Source: a bacterium (GTDB lineage: Bacteria; Planctomycetota; Planctomycetia; Planctomycetales; Planctomycetaceae). Taken from it: 40,403 nt of DNA. Location of the stretch: contig WGMU01000035.1 in assembly GCA_016124895.1 (NCBI GenBank), positions 1 through 40,403 on the forward strand, read 5' to 3'. Under the pieces are notes generated by a model that was not told the DNA's origin, did not search any database, and saw nothing but the letters and a program-made list of their open reading frames with translations. This document shows, piece by piece, positions 7,152 to 40,403 of the stretch (within the stretch, counting starts at the first letter, position 1; each line of letters begins with the position of its first letter). The position numbers and the translations under genes are program-made.

Positions 7152-8225
7152 ATGAGAAAGCTGATCTTTGATGCGCATCTTGATATGTCGTGGAATGCGA
7201 TTGAGTGGAACCGCGACCTGATGCTCCCTGTCAGTGAAATTCGAAAGTTCGAGAGTCAGTTTGAGAACATCGTCCCCGGTGACCCCACGGTGTCGTGGCA
7301 CGCGCTGCGGCGGGGGCGGGTCGGAATGACGATCTCGACGCTGCTGCCGCGGTTGCATCGCAAGGACGGGGCGCTGACGCATTATCAGTCGCGTGAGGCG
7401 GCGTATGGCTGCTGCATGGGACAGCTTGCCTATTACCAGGCGATGGTGAAACGCGGTGTGCTGCGGGAGATTCCAGACGCGGCTGCTCTGAACGAGCACG
7501 TGGCGGCGTGGGAGGCAGACGAATCAGAAGACTCCAGCGAGCTGCCAATCGGGTTCATTCTGAGCATGGAGGGCAGCCCGTCGATTCTCTCGCCAGGACA
7601 GATCAGTGAATGGTACGAGGCTGGCCTGCGGATTCTGGGGCCGGCTCATTACGGGCCAGGGCCGTACTGCATGGGGACAGGCAGCGAAGGCGGGCTGAAG
7701 AAAGAAGGTCCGGCGCTGCTGCGCGAGATGGATCGTGTCGGGATGCTGCTCGACGTGACTCACCTGGCTGATCAGTCATTCTGGGAAGCACTCGACGTCT
7801 ATCAGGGGCCGGTGCTGGCGAGTCATCACAACTGCCGTGCCTTAGTGCCGGGCGATCGGCAGCTCGATGACGACCAGATCAAGGAACTCATCAAACGGGA
7901 CGCGATCATCGGAGCAGCCTTTGATAACTGGATGATCAAGCCGGGCTGGATTCGCTTTGTGAGCGATCCGCAGACGGTCTGCATGGCGGACATCGTCGAT
8001 CATATCGACCATATCTGTCAGCTCGCAGGAACGACGAAACACTGCGGTCTGGGTACGGACCTCGATGGCGGTTTCGGCAAGGAGCAGTGCCCGTACGATC
8101 TCGACACAATCGCCGATCTGCAGAACATGGCTGGCCTGCTGTCAGAGCGCGGCTATAGCGATGCCGACATCGAAGGCATCATGTACCGCAACTGGGTCGA
8201 CTTCTTCCGCCGGGTGTGGAGCTGA
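7152..8225 (+). CDS. Membrane dipeptidase family protein (peptidase M19)
   Basis: This 357-aa zinc-dependent dipeptidase-like TIM-barrel protein hydrolyses dipeptides or related amide substrates. The M19 metal ligands are present: H9 and D11 in FDAHLDMSW, E140 in LSMEGSPS, H204 in DVTH, the paired His in SHHNCR (225-226), and D303 in GTDLDGGFG. I chose ATG 7152 because the HxD motif should sit a few residues from the N-terminus and AGGAAAG precedes it at suitable spacing. The in-frame codon at 7047 would add 35 unrelated residues. No signal peptide is seen, so the enzyme is probably cytoplasmic. It stands alone, ahead of trpS by 138 bp that hold a strong hairpin. Confidence 0.9.
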   Translation: MRKLIFDAHLDMSWNAIEWNRDLMLPVSEIRKFESQFENIVPGDPTVSWHALRRGRVGMTISTLLPRLHRKDGALTHYQSREAAYGCCMGQLAYYQAMVKRGVLREIPDAAALNEHVAAWEADESEDSSELPIGFILSMEGSPSILSPGQISEWYEAGLRILGPAHYGPGPYCMGTGSEGGLKKEGPALLREMDRVGMLLDVTHLADQSFWEALDVYQGPVLASHHNCRALVPGDRQLDDDQIKELIKRDAIIGAAFDNWMIKPGWIRFVSDPQTVCMADIVDHIDHICQLAGTTKHCGLGTDLDGGFGKEQCPYDLDTIADLQNMAGLLSERGYSDADIEGIMYRNWVDFFRRVWS

Positions 8226-8235
8226 TCTGACCTGG

Positions 8236-8302
8236 TGTGTGCCACTGGTTCTGCCAGTGAATCAGAGCCGGGGCTCAGCACTGGCGGAGCCTGTGGCACA
8301 CA
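8236..8302 (+). repeat. REP-like extragenic hairpin between dipeptidase and trpS
   Basis: Two 24-nt arms (8236-8259 beginning TGTGTGCCACTGG, and 8279-8302 ending GGCACACA) pair along their whole length with one mismatch and two G-T wobbles, around a 19-nt loop. There is no T-run after it. Compensatory wobbles rather than random decay suggest an RNA structure or a mobile palindromic repeat. It could also end the dipeptidase transcript or shape the trpS leader. Confidence 0.6.
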
Positions 8303-8363
8303 GGTTTGCGTCCCGGCTATTGGAATACTGCGTAGAACTGACGACAACACTGGATTCTGACTG

Positions 8364-9338
8364 ATGAAGATTCTCTCCGGCATTCAGCCGACTGGACGCT
8401 TTCACTGGGGCAATTACTTCGGAGCGATCCGGCAGTACATTGATCTGCAGGACAACGAGCAGGCGTTTTACTTCATCGCGGATTACCACGCGCTGACGAC
8501 CGTGCGCGAGCCGGAAACGCTGCGTGGCTACGTCCGCGACGCGGCGCTCGACCTGCTGGCGCTGGGACTCGATCCGGCGAAAGCGACGCTGTTCCGGCAG
8601 TCGGATGTCCCGGAAGTCACCGAGCTGACCTGGCTGCTGATGACGCTGACGCAGATGCACCTGCTCGAAAAGTGTCACGCTTACAAAGATAAGAAGGCGA
8701 AGGGACTGGCGGCCGACGCGGGACTCTTTACCTATCCGGTGCTGATGGCGGCCGACATTCTGCTGTATGACAGCGACGTCGTCCCGGTCGGGCTCGACCA
8801 GGTGCAGCACATCGAAGTGACACGCGACATCGCGGCCCGGTTCAACAACATGTACGGTGTCGAAGCTCTAAAGCTGCCGGATGCGAAAGTCGTCGAGTCG
8901 GCCGCCAAGGTGCCGGGTATCGACGGCGAGAAGATGTCGAAGAGCTACAACAATACGATCGAGCTGTTCGAGACGCCGAAGCGGACGAAGAAGAAGGTCA
9001 ACTCGATCAAGACAGACTCGAAGACCGTCGAGGAACCCAAGGATCCGGAAACGTGTTCGGTCTTCACGCTCTATAAACTGTTCGCGACACAGGAGCAGCA
9101 GGACGCTCTGACCGAACGTTACCGAGCGGGCGGGATGGGCTACGGCGAAGCGAAAGGGGCTCTGTACGAAGCCGCGATGGAACACTTCGCCGAGGCGCGC
9201 GAACGTCGCGAGAAGCTCGAACAGGATCCGAGCACGGTTGAAGACATCCTGCGGGCCGGCGCAACTAAAGCACGGGAAGTCGGCCGGGAAGTGCTCGATC
9301 GCTGCCGCGCGGCCTGCGGGCTGACGGCAACGTTCTGA
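8364..9338 (+). CDS. trpS: Tryptophanyl-tRNA synthetase
   Basis: This 324-aa class I aminoacyl-tRNA synthetase charges tRNA-Trp with tryptophan in the cytoplasm. The N-terminus [20 protein letters not shown] has the TrpRS signature with the HIGH-equivalent HWGN (14-17). The second class I signature GEKMSKS ends at about residue 194. The tryptophan-site region with YHALTT (41-46) and the dimer-interface motif following [11 protein letters not shown] (141-151) are also typical. Length is normal for bacterial TrpRS. It is monocistronic here, with the hairpin at 8236-8302 in its leader region. Confidence 0.97.
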
Positions 9339-34909: not shown

Positions 34910-35227
34910 GAGCAGCCCGCTGGGAGGCCTGCGATCCGGAGAAGTGCGGGGGGCAGGATGCCCGCGCACAGGAAGGGGCTTGGCCATGGCGCCTCAGGAG
35001 ACCCGCCCACGGCAAGCAGGAACAACGCAATCTCACCGGCCGGAAATACCAGCAGATCAGTCGCTGGCGAAAACAGTCACGGAATCGGTGGCCGCAAGCG
35101 TTGCTCTGTCGCTCGTCCGTCCCTGTAATTCGATCTTCGTTGTCAGAGTGATTTGCTCTGGCTTCAAACACCACAGTCTTCCCACGCGACGACGCGTTGC
35201 ATCATCGATTATCCCGGAGTCACCACG
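34910..35227. other. Intergenic region before the fumarase gene, no gene seen
   Basis: About 320 bases with several overlapping low-quality frames and no recognisable domain. It may contain further decayed sequence next to the mraY-like fragment. Confidence 0.3.
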
Positions 35228-36859
35228 ATGCCGACCGCCCCGTTTCATTATCAGCCCATGTTCGAACTCGGTGCCGACGACACGGAGTATCGACTCCTAA
35301 CTAAAGAACACGTTTCCGTCCAGCAGTTCAACGGGCAGGACGTGCTGATGGTTGAGCCGGAAGCGCTGACGCTGCTCGCATCGCAGGCGTTTCACGACAT
35401 CAACTTCTTCCTGCGCCCGGCCCACCTGAAGCAGGTTGCCGCGATCCTCGACGACCCGGAAGCGTCGGACAACGACCGGATGGTCGCTCTGACGATGCTC
35501 AAGAACGCCGACGTGGCGAGCGCGGGAGTTCTGCCGTTCTGCCAGGACACCGGCACGGCCATCGTTCACGGGAAAAAGGGGCACGCCGTCTGGTCGACCG
35601 GAGACGAAGCGGCGCTCTCGCAGGGCGTCTACAACGCCTACGCCGAAAACAATCTGCGGTACTCGCAGAACGCTCCGCTGACGATGTGGGACGAGAAAAA
35701 CACGAACTGCAACCTGCCCGCGCAGATCGATCTCGGGGCCGTCGACGGAGATGCCTACAAGTTCCTGTTCATCGCCAAGGGCGGCGGGTCGGCGAACAAG
35801 TCGTATCTCTACCAGGAGACGCGCGCCGTTCTGAATCCCAGGGCGCTGGTCGATTTCCTGACCGAGAAAATGGCGTCGCTCGGCACGGCGGCCTGCCCGC
35901 CGTATCACCTGACGTTTGTCATTGGCGGCACGTCCGCCGAAGCGACCATGAAGACGGTCAAGCTGGCGTCGACGAAGTACTACGACAATCTGCCGACGAC
36001 CGGCAACGAGCATGGCCGGGCCTTCCGTGACGTCGAACTCGAAGCCCAGATGCTGGAAGTCGCTCGCAACTGCGGCATCGGTGCCCAGTTCGGCGGGAAG
36101 TATTTCGCTCTAGATGTTCGCATTGTCCGGCTGCCGCGTCACGGAGCGTCGCTGCCGATCGGGATCGGCGTCTCGTGCAGCGCTGACCGCCAGGCGAAAG
36201 GCAAGATCACGAAAGATGGCGTTTTCATCGAGCAGCTCGAATTCGAACCGCTGAAGTACATTCCCGAAGAGCTGCGGCATCGCAAGGACGAAAGTGCCAT
36301 CCGCATCGATCTCAACCGCCCGATGCCGGAACTGCTGGCCGAGCTGACTCAGTATCCGGTCACCACGCGGCTGCTGTTGAGCGGCCCGATCATCGTCGCC
36401 CGCGACATCGCTCACGCGAAGCTGCGCGAGCGGCTCGAGTCCGGCCAGCCGTTGCCGGACTACTTCAAGCAGCATCCCGTCTACTACGCCGGCCCGGCCA
36501 AGAAGCCGGAAGGCCTTCCGAGCGGCTCGTTCGGACCAACCACGACTGGCCGCATGGATGCCTACGTCGACCTGTTCCAGGAGGCCGGAGGCAGCATGGT
36601 GATGATCGCCAAAGGCAACCGCGGCAAGGGCGTCACCGAATCCTGCCACAAACACGGCGGCTTCTACCTCGGCAGCATCGGAGGCCCCGCAGCCATCCTG
36701 GCCAAGGAGAACATCCGCAAAGTCGACGTCGTCGAATTCCCCGAGCTTGGCATGGAAGCCATCTGGAAAATCGAAGTCGAGGACTTCCCAGCCTTCATCC
36801 TGGTCGACGACAAAGGCAACGACTTCTTCGAAACCGTAGGCCCCGGCTGCGCCCACTGA
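35228..36859 (+). CDS. fumA: Class I fumarate hydratase (iron-sulfur, single chain)
   Basis: This 543-aa enzyme interconverts fumarate and malate in the TCA cycle using a [4Fe-4S] cluster. The three cluster cysteines sit almost where they do in E. coli FumA (105, 224, 318): C105 in [11 protein letters not shown]223 in TAACPPYH and C317 in GVSCSADRQ. The alpha-type N-terminal and beta-type C-terminal domains are both present, with [16 protein letters not shown] and [16 protein letters not shown] as beta signatures. ATG 35228 has GGAG eight bases upstream; the frame open to 35153 is not needed. It has no operon partner. Its high GC contrasts with the next gene. Confidence 0.95.
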
Positions 36860-36926: not shown

Positions 36927-36949
36927 TCCCGCATCACGAAGGAGACGAG

Positions 36950-39010
36950 ATGGCGCGGAACAAAAAGCGAAACGGAGAACAACATCGACTTCAACTCCCG
37001 AAAGACGCGCTTTCACGCGTCAATCTCGGACAGGTATTTGCCGAGTACGATCGAGTTCTTCAGCAGAAAAAAGGTATCTTCGTTCGGACACCAGCGATCC
37101 GTGCAGCAACTGAGACCGACCTTTCAAAATGCTTCTTTGTAGGTCGCCGCGGTACGGGCAAGACAGCGATTTCCTACTTCCTACGCACGCAATATCGCTC
37201 GGCGATTCAGCTTCAGCCGCAGACATTTAACGCGTATGGATTGCCCGTTGAGATTGATCAACTCCGCGACGCAACTCAGCGACACTTTCGATCGCTCGTA
37301 GCCTGCTTCAAAAGAGCGCTGCTCGATGAAGTGCTCGCATCATGGCGTGCTGATCACGCGGTCGACATGAATGAGCGCCCTTTTTCGCTCGAACGCAACT
37401 ACGTCGACGATTTCGATTTTGACCTTCGGATGCTTGCGTTCGTCGAGACGTTATTCAGCGAACTCGCGAAACCCAAAGAGAAAGATTGGCTCCGCGAATT
37501 AAAGAAGACGAAAACGCTTCAAGACGCAATGGAAGAATGCGGAATCTCGACTCCAGTTGTGCTCCTCATTGACCAGATCGACGAAGCGTGGGACGGATCG
37601 GACGCCGCTGTGTTATTTCTGATGGCACTTATGCATGCGTGTGTTGAACTGTCAGCGAGCACGTCATTCATGCGGCCCTTACTGTTTCTGCGAGAAAACA
37701 TCTTCGATCGAGTCCGCCAAATTGACAATGAGTTTGCTCGCCTCGAAACCTGCGTGGTTTCATTGGAATGGACTCGTGAGTTGCTCATTGAACTTGTCGA
37801 GCGTCGATTGCAGTCTGGGCTCACCACTAAACCTGCCCTCGGCGAAACATGGGATCTGTTTTTTGAGCCATACGATGGAATGTCATCTCGAGAGATGGTC
37901 CTCGACTATTGCCAGCAACGCCCCCGAGATGTTCTTACGTATTGTTCCCTAGCGATCGAGTCAGCCGTCAGTCGTCGCCAAGCGATGGTCTCGGTTGAAG
38001 ATCTTCAAACAGCTCGTCGACAGTTCTCGGAAAGTCGTTTGAAGGATCTCGGCGACGAGTACAGTGAAAACTTTCCACAGCTCCAAGTCGTCTTGAATCG
38101 GTTTCATGGGCTGGGGCGAGACTTCACTGTTAGCGGTGTGTCGTCGTTGATTCAAAAACTTCTTGTGGACAACGAGGTGCGACAGTTGTGCGGTAGCTGG
38201 ATCTATCAGTACACAACTCCGCCGAAGTTCATGCAGCTTCTTTACGGAATCGGCTTTTGGGGACTTCAGACGAAGGGCAAACCGGTCGTATTCAGGTCCC
38301 TCGGTGCGACGACGGCGTCCCCACCGCCAATCGATCAGACCACACACGCCGTCGTTCATCCCTGCTATCGAGACGCGCTCGATCTTCCAGACCGCGTGAT
38401 TACGGATTTGGAAGAGGACTTGGCGCTGCAGCAAGACGGCTTGATTCTGGATATCCCAGAAGCGATCCAACTCAACGACTACTTTGAAGAGGTGGGGCGT
38501 CTGCTCGACACGTTACCAACGATCCCGACTGGTCGAGATGGCGAAACGGAATACGAAGATCTGATCGGACGGATGATCGAACTTTGCTTCTACCGTGCCC
38601 TGACCAATGTTGAGCCCCAGTCTCGAGACTGTGAAGGACGGGTCAGGCGCGACTGGATCGCATCAAACCGTGCAGACACTGGGTTCTGGGAAGTGATCCG
38701 ATCTCGATACAAAGCCGTGCAAGTTGTCTGGGAATGCAAAAACTTCGAGGAACTCGATGCGGATGTGTTTCAGCAAATTGGGTATTACTTGAACGATACC
38801 ATTGGACGATTTGGATTGGTCTGCTTTCGAGGAGAGATGAAGAATCACTACTACGGGCATCTCAAGAGGCTCGCAGACAAGGACAACAAGACGGTGCTTT
38901 TGCTGACTGAGCGAGACGTTCTTGTGTTCCTTCGACAGGCAAAAAACGGCAAGGTGAAGGAAAGCCATCTCCAAGAGATATACGATCGAACTGTCAGGAA
39001 GACCTCATGA
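36950..39010 (+). CDS. P-loop ATPase fused to a PD-(D/E)XK-like nuclease, candidate defence protein
   Basis: This 686-aa protein has an N-terminal P-loop ATPase: Walker A GRRGTGKT (65-72), Walker B VVLLIDQIDEAW (203-214), and an Arg-containing segment RPLLFLRENIFDRVR (242-256). A winged-helix-like middle follows (375-445, including FTVSGVSSLIQKLLVDN). The C-terminus (535-670) looks like a restriction-type nuclease: acidic helix TEYEDLIGRMIEL, then RRDWIASN with D568, and VVWECKNF with E595-x-K597, then QQIGYYL. The architecture recalls P-loop ATPases of the Sll1717 type and ATPase-nuclease antiphage proteins; that link is from memory. Sampled lines are 40-43% GC against 68% in the fumarase gene, so it was probably acquired by transfer. 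AGGAG supports the start. No partner gene adjoins it. Confidence 0.8.
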   Translation: MARNKKRNGEQHRLQLPKDALSRVNLGQVFAEYDRVLQQKKGIFVRTPAIRAATETDLSKCFFVGRRGTGKTAISYFLRTQYRSAIQLQPQTFNAYGLPVEIDQLRDATQRHFRSLVACFKRALLDEVLASWRADHAVDMNERPFSLERNYVDDFDFDLRMLAFVETLFSELAKPKEKDWLRELKKTKTLQDAMEECGISTPVVLLIDQIDEAWDGSDAAVLFLMALMHACVELSASTSFMRPLLFLRENIFDRVRQIDNEFARLETCVVSLEWTRELLIELVERRLQSGLTTKPALGETWDLFFEPYDGMSSREMVLDYCQQRPRDVLTYCSLAIESAVSRRQAMVSVEDLQTARRQFSESRLKDLGDEYSENFPQLQVVLNRFHGLGRDFTVSGVSSLIQKLLVDNEVRQLCGSWIYQYTTPPKFMQLLYGIGFWGLQTKGKPVVFRSLGATTASPPPIDQTTHAVVHPCYRDALDLPDRVITDLEEDLALQQDGLILDIPEAIQLNDYFEEVGRLLDTLPTIPTGRDGETEYEDLIGRMIELCFYRALTNVEPQSRDCEGRVRRDWIASNRADTGFWEVIRSRYKAVQVVWECKNFEELDADVFQQIGYYLNDTIGRFGLVCFRGEMKNHYYGHLKRLADKDNKTVLLLTERDVLVFLRQAKNGKVKESHLQEIYDRTVRKTS

Positions 39011-39129: not shown

Positions 39130-40140
39130 CTACTGAATCTTCAGGCTGGCGATGGCGAGGACGGCCAGCAGGGCGGACGTGATCCAGAAGCGGGTGACGA
39201 TTTTGATTTCGTGGTCGCCCTTGAACAGAAAATGGTTGTGCAGGGGGCTGCAGGCGAGGACTCGGGTGCCGGTCAGTTTGAACCAGCCGACCTGGGCGAT
39301 GACGCTCAGTGTTTCCGCCACGAACACGCCGCCGACGATCACCAGCAGGATCTCCTGACGCGCGGCGAGAGCGGCCAGGCCGAGTAACGCTCCGATCGGC
39401 AGCGAGCCGGCGTCGCCCATGAAGACCTGGGCCGGGTAGCAGTTGAACCACAGAAAGCCCAGCATCGCGCCGACCATCGCGCCCATCACGACAGCCAGTT
39501 CGCCGCAGCCGGCGACGTACGGGATCGCCAGGTACTCGGCCATCTCCTTGTGCCCGGCCAGGTAGGTCAGCGCAGTGAATGCTCCGCCGGCGAACACCAT
39601 GCAGCCGCTGGCCAGACCGTCGAGACCGTCGGTCAGGTTCACTCCGTTGGAACTGCCGACGAGCACGAACGCGGCCCAGGCGACGAACGCGATGCCCAGC
39701 GGGATCGTGGCACCGCCGATCGGGATGACGAGGCTCAGGCCCTGCGGCACGTCGCGATGCGTGACGTACAGCGCTGCCGCGAAGCCGAACGCCAGCAGCC
39801 ACTGGACGACGAACTTCTGCCGGACCTTCAGGCCGTTCAGTTTCGAGCTGAGCTTGACCCAGTCGTCCCACGCTCCGAGACCGCCAAACGTCGCGACGAT
39901 GCCGATGCCGCTGAGCGTGTACGGACTGCTGAGGTCTCCCCACAGCAGAGCGCCAATCAGAATCGCGGCGCAGATAAACAGGCCGCCCATCGTCGGCGTC
40001 GACTGCTTCTCAGCGTGCAGCTCGTTCAGCCGTTCCGAGTCGCTGGCAATCCGCTCGCGAAACCGCCCCTTCAACCAGCCAATCAGAATCGGGCCGAGCA
40101 GCAGCGCGGCAACGAACGACGTCAGGTTCGCCAGAGCAAT
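39130..40140 (-). pseudogene. mraY: Phospho-N-acetylmuramoyl-pentapeptide transferase, N-terminally truncated
   Basis: MraY moves phospho-MurNAc-pentapeptide onto undecaprenyl phosphate to make lipid I. The chain from [20 protein letters not shown] through the conserved [37 protein letters not shown] (catalytic Asp region), [15 protein letters not shown] and the terminal [11 protein letters not shown] is intact and well conserved. The first membrane helix and start codon are missing: going upstream the frame shows no ATG, GTG or TTG before a TGA, and the first possible start (TTG 40074) would cut helix 1. At about 40140 the sequence turns into transposase code. Either this is a disrupted copy, or the joint is an assembly artefact; a working copy must exist elsewhere for this essential step. 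Confidence 0.85.
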
Positions 40141-40141
40141 T

Positions 40142-40403
40142 GGCGGCCAACAGAGTCACTCGCACGGATGTGTCCGGGGACGCATTGAACTCCGCGCGCA
40201 TTCGTGCGCAGAACAGGTGGCTGAGCGCTGTCACAAAGAAGTGGCGATGCACGCAGCGCCAGCCGCGGACTTCCCAGTGGTCCAGGCCCAGTTCCTCTTT
40301 GCCTTCGCGGAACACACTCTCGATCGACCACCGGCCGAACGCTACACGCAGCAGCCACCGCACGGTCACACGCTCGTTCGTGACCGGGTTCACCTCGCCG
40401 GGC
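40142..40403 (-). pseudogene. Transposase fragment (DDE type, IS701/IS4-like)
   Basis: A frame entering from the right edge encodes VNPVTNERVTVRWLLRVAF, then RWSIESVFREGKEELGLDHW and EVRGWRCVHRHFFVTALSHL. This contains the (Y/W)xxExxFRxxKxxLG block with the catalytic Glu of IS4/IS701-like transposases. The family C-terminus normally continues further, but here the frame runs into mraY sequence near 40140 without its own stop. So the transposase is cut at its 3' end, and mraY at its 5' end, at the same joint. The N-terminal catalytic part lies beyond the window. The exact family is uncertain. Confidence 0.75.

Follow-up and report, generated by a model that had tools for sequence, protein, structure and literature searches.

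Locus and base composition

The window analyzed here is a whole contig of 40,403 nucleotides. The open frame for an ATPase-nuclease that an earlier note on this DNA had described is real, and a ribosome-binding site precedes it:

36950..39010, + strand: ATPase-nuclease gene of 686 codons (686 amino acids), one uninterrupted open frame, with a match to NF047389 (ATPase_Sll1717)
36939..36944, + strand: ribosome-binding site AAGGAG, read from the sequence, ending five bases 5' of the ATG

At E ≤ 0.01, the encoded protein is the sole match within its own genome. Its closest genes, named by reading their translations, are a fumarase, an ABC transporter and mraY; the window is no defense island, and no recognized defense genes were seen beside it within the window. 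The gene has a GC content of 51.8% (0.61, 0.38, and 0.57 by codon position), which is 10–13 points below that of the three measured neighbors, i.e., the adjoining fumarase (62.2%, GC3 0.82), the ABC transporter (62.1%, GC3 0.73), and mraY (65.2%, GC3 0.87); its GC3 of 0.57 compares with 0.73–0.87 in these genes. The values given previously, 40–43% for the gene and 68% for the fumarase, were thus too far apart: 60-base lines sampled in the gene range from 41.7 to 63.3%, and 40–43% matches the lowest of these lines only. The acquisition of the gene, which the earlier note had considered probable, is supported by its low GC and GC3 relative to the neighbors and by its patchy, non-core occurrence (see below).

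The fumarase gene (35222-36859) has a strong match in one of the 29 other relatives' genomes searched (65% identity) and may have been acquired as well. In an empty-site comparison, the fumarase matched strongly in 2 of 30 genomes including the window's own, and no comparable empty site was found. On the other side, mraY (39130-40403, − strand) is the sole mraY match in the genome and presumably lacks its usual N-terminus. A DDE transposase fragment lies upstream of mraY at 40010-40393 (PF01609, E 2e-4, just under Pfam's cut-off), and the contig stops there; this side of the window probably holds an insertion element or a contig end that was wrongly joined.

Predicted structure and active sites

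An AlphaFold2 model of the protein, built from 64 homologues, had a mean pLDDT of 91 and a pTM of 0.73. Its N-terminal part contains the following features:

37004..38059, + strand: AAA+ ATPase module, residues 19-370, from VIA-align fold matches; inner border approximate
37142..37165, + strand: Walker A GRRGTGKT, residues 65-72; K71 in 64/64 homologues
37562..37585, + strand: Walker B LLIDQIDE, residues 205-212; D208 and D211 in 64/64 homologues
37919..37930, + strand: RPRD, residues 324-327, sensor-2-like (label inferred), in 64/64 homologues
38060..38386, + strand: winged helix of the ORC/Cdc6-like ATPase, residues 371-479, from secondary structure and fold alignments; borders approximate

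The P-loop ATPase recognized previously by GRRGTGKT (65-72) and LLIDQIDEAW (205-214) is supported, with both motifs present and the ATPase residues retained in all 64 homologues. Pfam gave weak AAA matches only, and the NCBIfam model NF047389 (Sll1717 P-loop ATPase) covers residues 27-477 with 245.6 bits at a cut-off of 75. The best VIA-align matches of residues 19-479 were the archaeal AAA+ proteins 2fna (Z 13.0) and 2qen (Z 12.8), followed by ORC2 (1w5t, Z 12.5), TnsC (7ufi, Z 12.4), and Cdc6 (1fnn, Z 12.3), with the NRC4 resistosome (9cc9, Z 11.8) and CED-4 (4m9s, Z 11.3) at lower scores. As these values are nearly tied, no exact relative is singled out. Aligned ranges of the ORC/Cdc6 and archaeal AAA+ chains extend to residues 478-479. 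In the model, an ORC/Cdc6/TnsC-like AAA+ ATPase of the Sll1717 family, complete with its winged helix, occupies residues 19-479. The winged helix that had been suspected in the middle of the protein is thus present; its proposed role as a separate sensor is ruled out, because the fold alignment shows it to be part of the ATPase.

The C-terminal part comprises the following features:

38456..39007, + strand: FokI/BspD6I-like PD-(D/E)XK nuclease domain, residues 503-686, from fold matches and PADLOC PDC-M36A
38555..38557, + strand: E536, nuclease helix glutamate, in 62/64 homologues
38651..38653, + strand: D568, catalytic candidate, in 61/64 homologues
38732..38740, + strand: E595-C-K597, catalytic candidate; E or D in 61/64, K in 62/64 homologues
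38774..38776, + strand: Q609, nuclease helix glutamine, in 62/64 homologues

Within the full model, residues 503-686 matched BspD6I and FokI at Z 11.1–11.9 in VIA-align. When folded alone (pLDDT 94.7, pTM 0.90), the domain matched N.BspD6I best (6qnz, Z 12.2, rmsd 3.0 over 159 residues), then the R.BspD6I small subunit (2p14, Z 12.0 over 150) and FokI (2fok, Z 11.9 over 156). LlaBIII followed about two Z units under FokI (Z 10.0), and lower scores were obtained for restriction enzymes and for a number of immune nucleases (Shedu SduA 9.1, Card1 9.0, Can2 8.6, Hna 7.9, NucC 7.6, and Avs4 7.4). Foldseek ranked FokI (1fok_A) first with E 2.7e-4, at nearly the same value as chain E of an RNA polymerase II complex (E 3.4e-4). 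With an RNA polymerase subunit as runner-up, the FokI match rests on the agreement of both programs and on the conserved residues. Sequence profiles barely detect the nuclease: Pfam PDDEXK_3 was found in 4 of 66 family members (best E 0.031), and no PDB sequence matched the domain at E ≤ 1. The structural model indicates that residues 503-686 fold like the cleavage domains of FokI and BspD6I, and D568 and E595-x-K597 correspond to the PD-(D/E)XK catalytic pattern, so that catalysis is predicted. The earlier note had staked its reading on a restriction-type nuclease fold at the C-terminus with exactly these residues, and both fold and residues were found.

In the 64-row alignment, K71, D208, D211, R248, N250, and R324-P-R-D327 are invariant, and all five nuclease residues (E536, D568, E/D595, K597, and Q609) occur jointly in 61 rows, the exceptions being L074, L081, and L085; these counts favor intact proteins, since the rows were chosen as full-length and two longer homologues with a dead nuclease site (L071 and L090) as well as broken or partial ones were left out. 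The conservation pattern indicates that both predicted enzymes, the ATPase and the nuclease, are under selection.

Distribution and foreign composition of the family

Among 99 genomes (the window's own and 98 relatives), four contained matches to the protein at E ≤ 1e-5, of which only that in the window's own genome was full-length and the other three were partial. Of 199 genomes from the phylum, the window's among them, 11 had a match to NF047389 at E ≤ 1e-10, and nine of these matches exceeded the cut-off; the 14 control genomes had no match. These numbers rule out a conserved core gene of the phylum; together with a GC content unlike that of its neighbors, they agree with what the earlier note had expected of an acquired gene. 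An oddity of a single genome can be dismissed as well: a contig scan with the window protein alone yielded no relative, and a scan with a four-member alignment yielded 87 loci, of which 80 were kept, and a further 10 in viral contigs.

The homologues form two clades in the phylogenetic tree. That of the window protein comprises 15 rows with 44–51% identity to it (five from Pseudomonadota, four from Actinomycetota, three from Acidobacteriota, two from Planctomycetota, and the window itself), and the larger clade shows 20–26% identity. The four Planctomycetota rows require four label changes on the tree, no fewer than shuffled labels (mean 3.9); the Actinomycetota rows form one group. An open frame of 58 amino acids in genome G074 (L002:1501-1671) contains 57 residues that are 44% identical to residues 629-685 and is probably what is left of a gene from the window's clade, and the member at L006 is broken into two annotated pieces.

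Of the 64 rows, 8 were dropped for having less than 8 kb of flank. At 53 of the remaining 56 loci, the family gene was more AT-rich than its flanks, and the median GC difference was −12.6 points (Wilcoxon p = 2e-10). The control genes, called at these loci and no shorter than 450 amino acids, had a median of +3.3 points, and one of 161 was as low as the family genes; they were called by longest open frame and some are spurious, which weakens this control. The low GC at 53 of 56 loci shows that the foreign composition belongs to the family and not to the window's genome alone. Given this composition, the patchy occurrence, and the carriage by mobile elements described below, we regard a host accessory of DNA repair or replication, namely a Cdc6-like loader with a nuclease, as highly improbable despite the ORC/Cdc6 fold. 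Four homologues (L036, L089, L091, and L099) each span two open frames, being either frameshifted or broken genes or draft assembly errors, which also speaks against such a function.

Exchange of the enzyme end

Two homologues retain the ATPase and the nuclease domain, have substitutions in the nuclease residues, and carry an additional C-terminal enzyme. In L071 (3950-6658), D568 is replaced by S and E595-x-K597 by V-x-R, and an adenylate/guanylate cyclase domain follows (PF00211, E 3e-17). In L090 (9974-12889), the changes are E536 to C, E595-x-K597 to L-x-R, and Q609 to D, and the added domain is a nucleoside phosphorylase (PF01048, E 6e-22). A separate phosphorylase gene (7940-9043; PF01048, E 5e-20) ends 8 bases upstream of the L085 member, which lacks the nuclease residues, on the same strand. 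L081 has D568 changed to N and E595 to I with K597 kept; its next gene, a KAP ATPase on the opposite strand, is the sole candidate for a replacement enzyme there, and none was recognized beside L074. Five further homologues (L008, L009, and L095-L097) combine the same ATPase, without the nuclease, with a deoxyribosyltransferase-like N-terminal match, which is weak (E 1e-5 to 2e-3) and in no case reaches Pfam's cut-off.

Appended C-terminal enzymes thus occur in two of the five dead-nuclease members examined and in none of the 61 intact rows, which extend at most 133 residues past K597; the pattern was noticed in passing rather than by a designed test, and the numbers are small. To judge from these sequences, one enzyme end can apparently be exchanged for another. 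Both phosphorylases and cyclases are known from immunity, where they act as effectors or produce signals.

Neighboring genes, mobile carriers and the tnpX gene of gamma-delta

The homologues are mostly solitary genes. A same-strand neighbor within 60 bases was present for 19 of 63, and among 304 called neighbors within 2.5 kb no family occurred at more than 3 of the 63 loci. In a sample of 142 of 159 near and 140 of 186 far genes, 193 PADLOC families were matched near the homologues and 69 far from them. The comparison is not decisive for an enrichment of defense genes: it counts families and not genes, its far genes are still no more than 10 kb away, and the called genes include spurious ones.

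Members of the family are carried by different types of mobile elements. In Escherichia coli, the EMG2 plasmid, which we take to be F from its tra genes, size, and strain, carries a Tn3-type element in which one member follows the resolvase at a distance of 15 bases. The same member resides in the DH5alpha chromosome, and both copies are 100% identical to that on a plasmid of a farm isolate. A published study gives primers for the tnpX-tnpR stretch of Tn1000 with a 1,887-base product (PMC6340991). Two of these primers map in the E. coli member and the resolvase and span 1,887 bases, which identifies the member as tnpX of gamma-delta (Tn1000). It was found in 126 of 5,426 E. coli genomes, at 73 chromosomal and 58 plasmid places, and many laboratory K-12 derivatives are among the matches listed. 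A second E. coli version, present in 41 of the 5,426 genomes and 75.6% alike at the DNA level to a copy in a viral contig, is located in the one genome inspected in a prophage with recE, kilR, and sieB, which we read as Rac-like. In Klebsiella, a third version is found on a plasmid that also has phage-type genes, and two records of Klebsiella phages contain it as well. Within the window's own clade, phage integrases adjoin one member (L034) or lie 1.6 kb (L028) and 4.3 kb (L031) away, and another member (L035) is 0.8 kb from a Mutator transposase.

Such carriage raises the question of whether the protein serves its carrier. It could be a factor for transposition or element maintenance, in which a TnsC/MuB-like ATPase with a restriction-fold nuclease aids the movement, resolution, or competition of the element. 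TnsA and TnsC together provide a restriction-fold nuclease and an ATPase, and TnsC and MuB (8xvb, Z 11.5) are among the best matches of the ATPase. TnsA was not among the best 50 fold matches of the nuclease domain, an absence without weight as a test. The position of tnpX behind the resolvase, the carriage on transposons and plasmids, and the transposase fragment past mraY, some 1 kb downstream of the window gene, would fit as well. However, a single Tn3 transposase was found among the 142 near genes, in the best 25 of 140 families, which makes the gamma-delta arrangement an exception. Moreover, no annotated transposase accompanies the copies in the Rac-like prophage and on the phage-like plasmid in the stretches inspected, and gamma-delta is not known to need genes other than tnpA and tnpR. 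We therefore consider this function unlikely. Equally improbable in our view is a role restricted to warfare between elements, in which the protein would kill rival plasmids or prophages and not provide phage defense proper. The copies on F, other plasmids, phage-like plasmids, and a prophage suit this idea, whereas those in unlike phyla lie between chromosomal-looking genes with no recognized element, although the draft contigs leave this uncertain.

The earlier note had suggested that the combination of domains may be undescribed. It is not confined to the window genome and recurs in a wide family that includes tnpX. Literature searches that covered few subscription papers and no bioRxiv preprints as such found no published function for the family or for TnpX, no mention of Sll1717, and no link of Tn1000 to anti-phage activity. 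Two papers in these searches name tnpX together with Tn1000, and judging by their titles both deal with tet(M) elements.

Proposed function

We read the window gene as an acquired copy from a widespread family of solitary and in many cases mobile ATPase-nucleases, whose role is most likely defense. We estimate a probability of about two in three that it encodes a single-protein, horizontally spread defense system against phages or other incoming DNA. Observed are predicted folds, conserved active sites, a lone and often mobile occurrence, a foreign composition, and a few exchanges of the enzyme end; the mobility, the solitary occurrence, and these exchanges fit a role in defense. For the trigger, oligomer, substrate, and outcome, we infer the following scheme. 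The ORC/Cdc6/TnsC-like AAA+ part would act as a switch, which upon a signal of the invader (foreign or replicating DNA, or a phage protein) would bind ATP and assemble. Assembly would pair the FokI-like ends and lead to cutting of DNA. FokI-type domains are known to cut only as dimers, so that single copies would be harmless and assembled ones would cut. The cut might either destroy the invader or kill the infected cell.

A broader reading, to which we give about even odds, is that one Cdc6/TnsC-like AAA+ core with an interchangeable enzyme end constitutes a wide family of immune switches, with TnpX as its E. coli member. In this family, the great majority of the proteins seen would carry the FokI-like nuclease, which after loss of its site would have been replaced by a cyclase or a phosphorylase, while the inactive nuclease domain would be retained as an adaptor; the N-terminal deoxyribosyltransferase-like domain would be an alternative. 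If this is true, DH5alpha carries an unrecognized immune gene. The gene tnpX, which belongs to one of the most thoroughly studied transposons and is present on the F plasmid and in DH5alpha, both used daily for phage work and cloning, gains a testable role, and if TnpX acts on phages or plasmids, phage and cloning experiments with F or DH5alpha may be biased.

Comparison with known systems

Proteins of this general architecture are already known. What a specialist would not expect is a FokI-like end joined to a Cdc6-like core, the relationship to tnpX, and the swapping of one enzyme end for another. The closest described family is Sll1717 (NF047389), to which the ATPase and winged helix of the window protein belong by a score over the cut-off and which all 66 members match at E ≤ 0.01; the model stops before the nuclease, and its name carries no function. 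TnpX of gamma-delta aligns over both domains (residues 13-629, 24.8% identity, E 5e-41) and has the same conserved residues. Unlike the window gene, it is located on a Tn3-type transposon, and its close relatives (L045 and L047) fall into the other clade.

Links to defense models concern one half of the protein at a time. The nuclease (residues 517-659) matches PADLOC PDC-M36A, a defense candidate, with E 2.5e-19 over positions 284-428 of 457, leaving the rest of the model unmatched, and the nuclease half resembles this model in 64 of 66 members. The M in this name presumably stands for a multi-gene candidate. The ATPase weakly resembles the anti-phage model NF053860 (DS41_1, 448 positions) in 65 of 66 members; the window protein scored 31.9 bits, far below the cut-off of 370. 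Judging from its name, this model probably represents DS-41, which appears among the validated systems of DefensePredictor (PMC13092281). The model's own gene was found in 0 of 392 genomes at E ≤ 1e-30, an uninformative result since the controls were equally silent. The family's link to validated defense is accordingly remote.

With the cleavage domains of FokI and BspD6I, the protein has the fold in common (Z about 12 over 150–159 residues) at 9–12% identity; these enzymes have a sequence-recognition domain where the window protein has its ATPase. OLD, Gabija, and PARIS likewise join an ATPase switch to a nuclease end. They use an ABC-type ATPase and a Toprim nuclease, in contrast to the AAA+ ATPase and PD-(D/E)XK nuclease found here; Toprim was not among the Pfam, PADLOC, and fold matches listed for the window protein, an absence that is no test. 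STAND NTPases share the P-loop ATPase with a winged helix (Walker A and B in 64/64 homologues; matches to NRC4 and CED-4). Their repeat sensor is absent from the window model, in which the winged helix reaches residue 479 and the nuclease starts at 503. The swap from a nuclease to a cyclase or phosphorylase on one ATPase core would be a natural experiment on AAA+ switches with unlike outputs, and it parallels STAND immunity, with the difference that the core is Cdc6-like and lacks repeat sensors.
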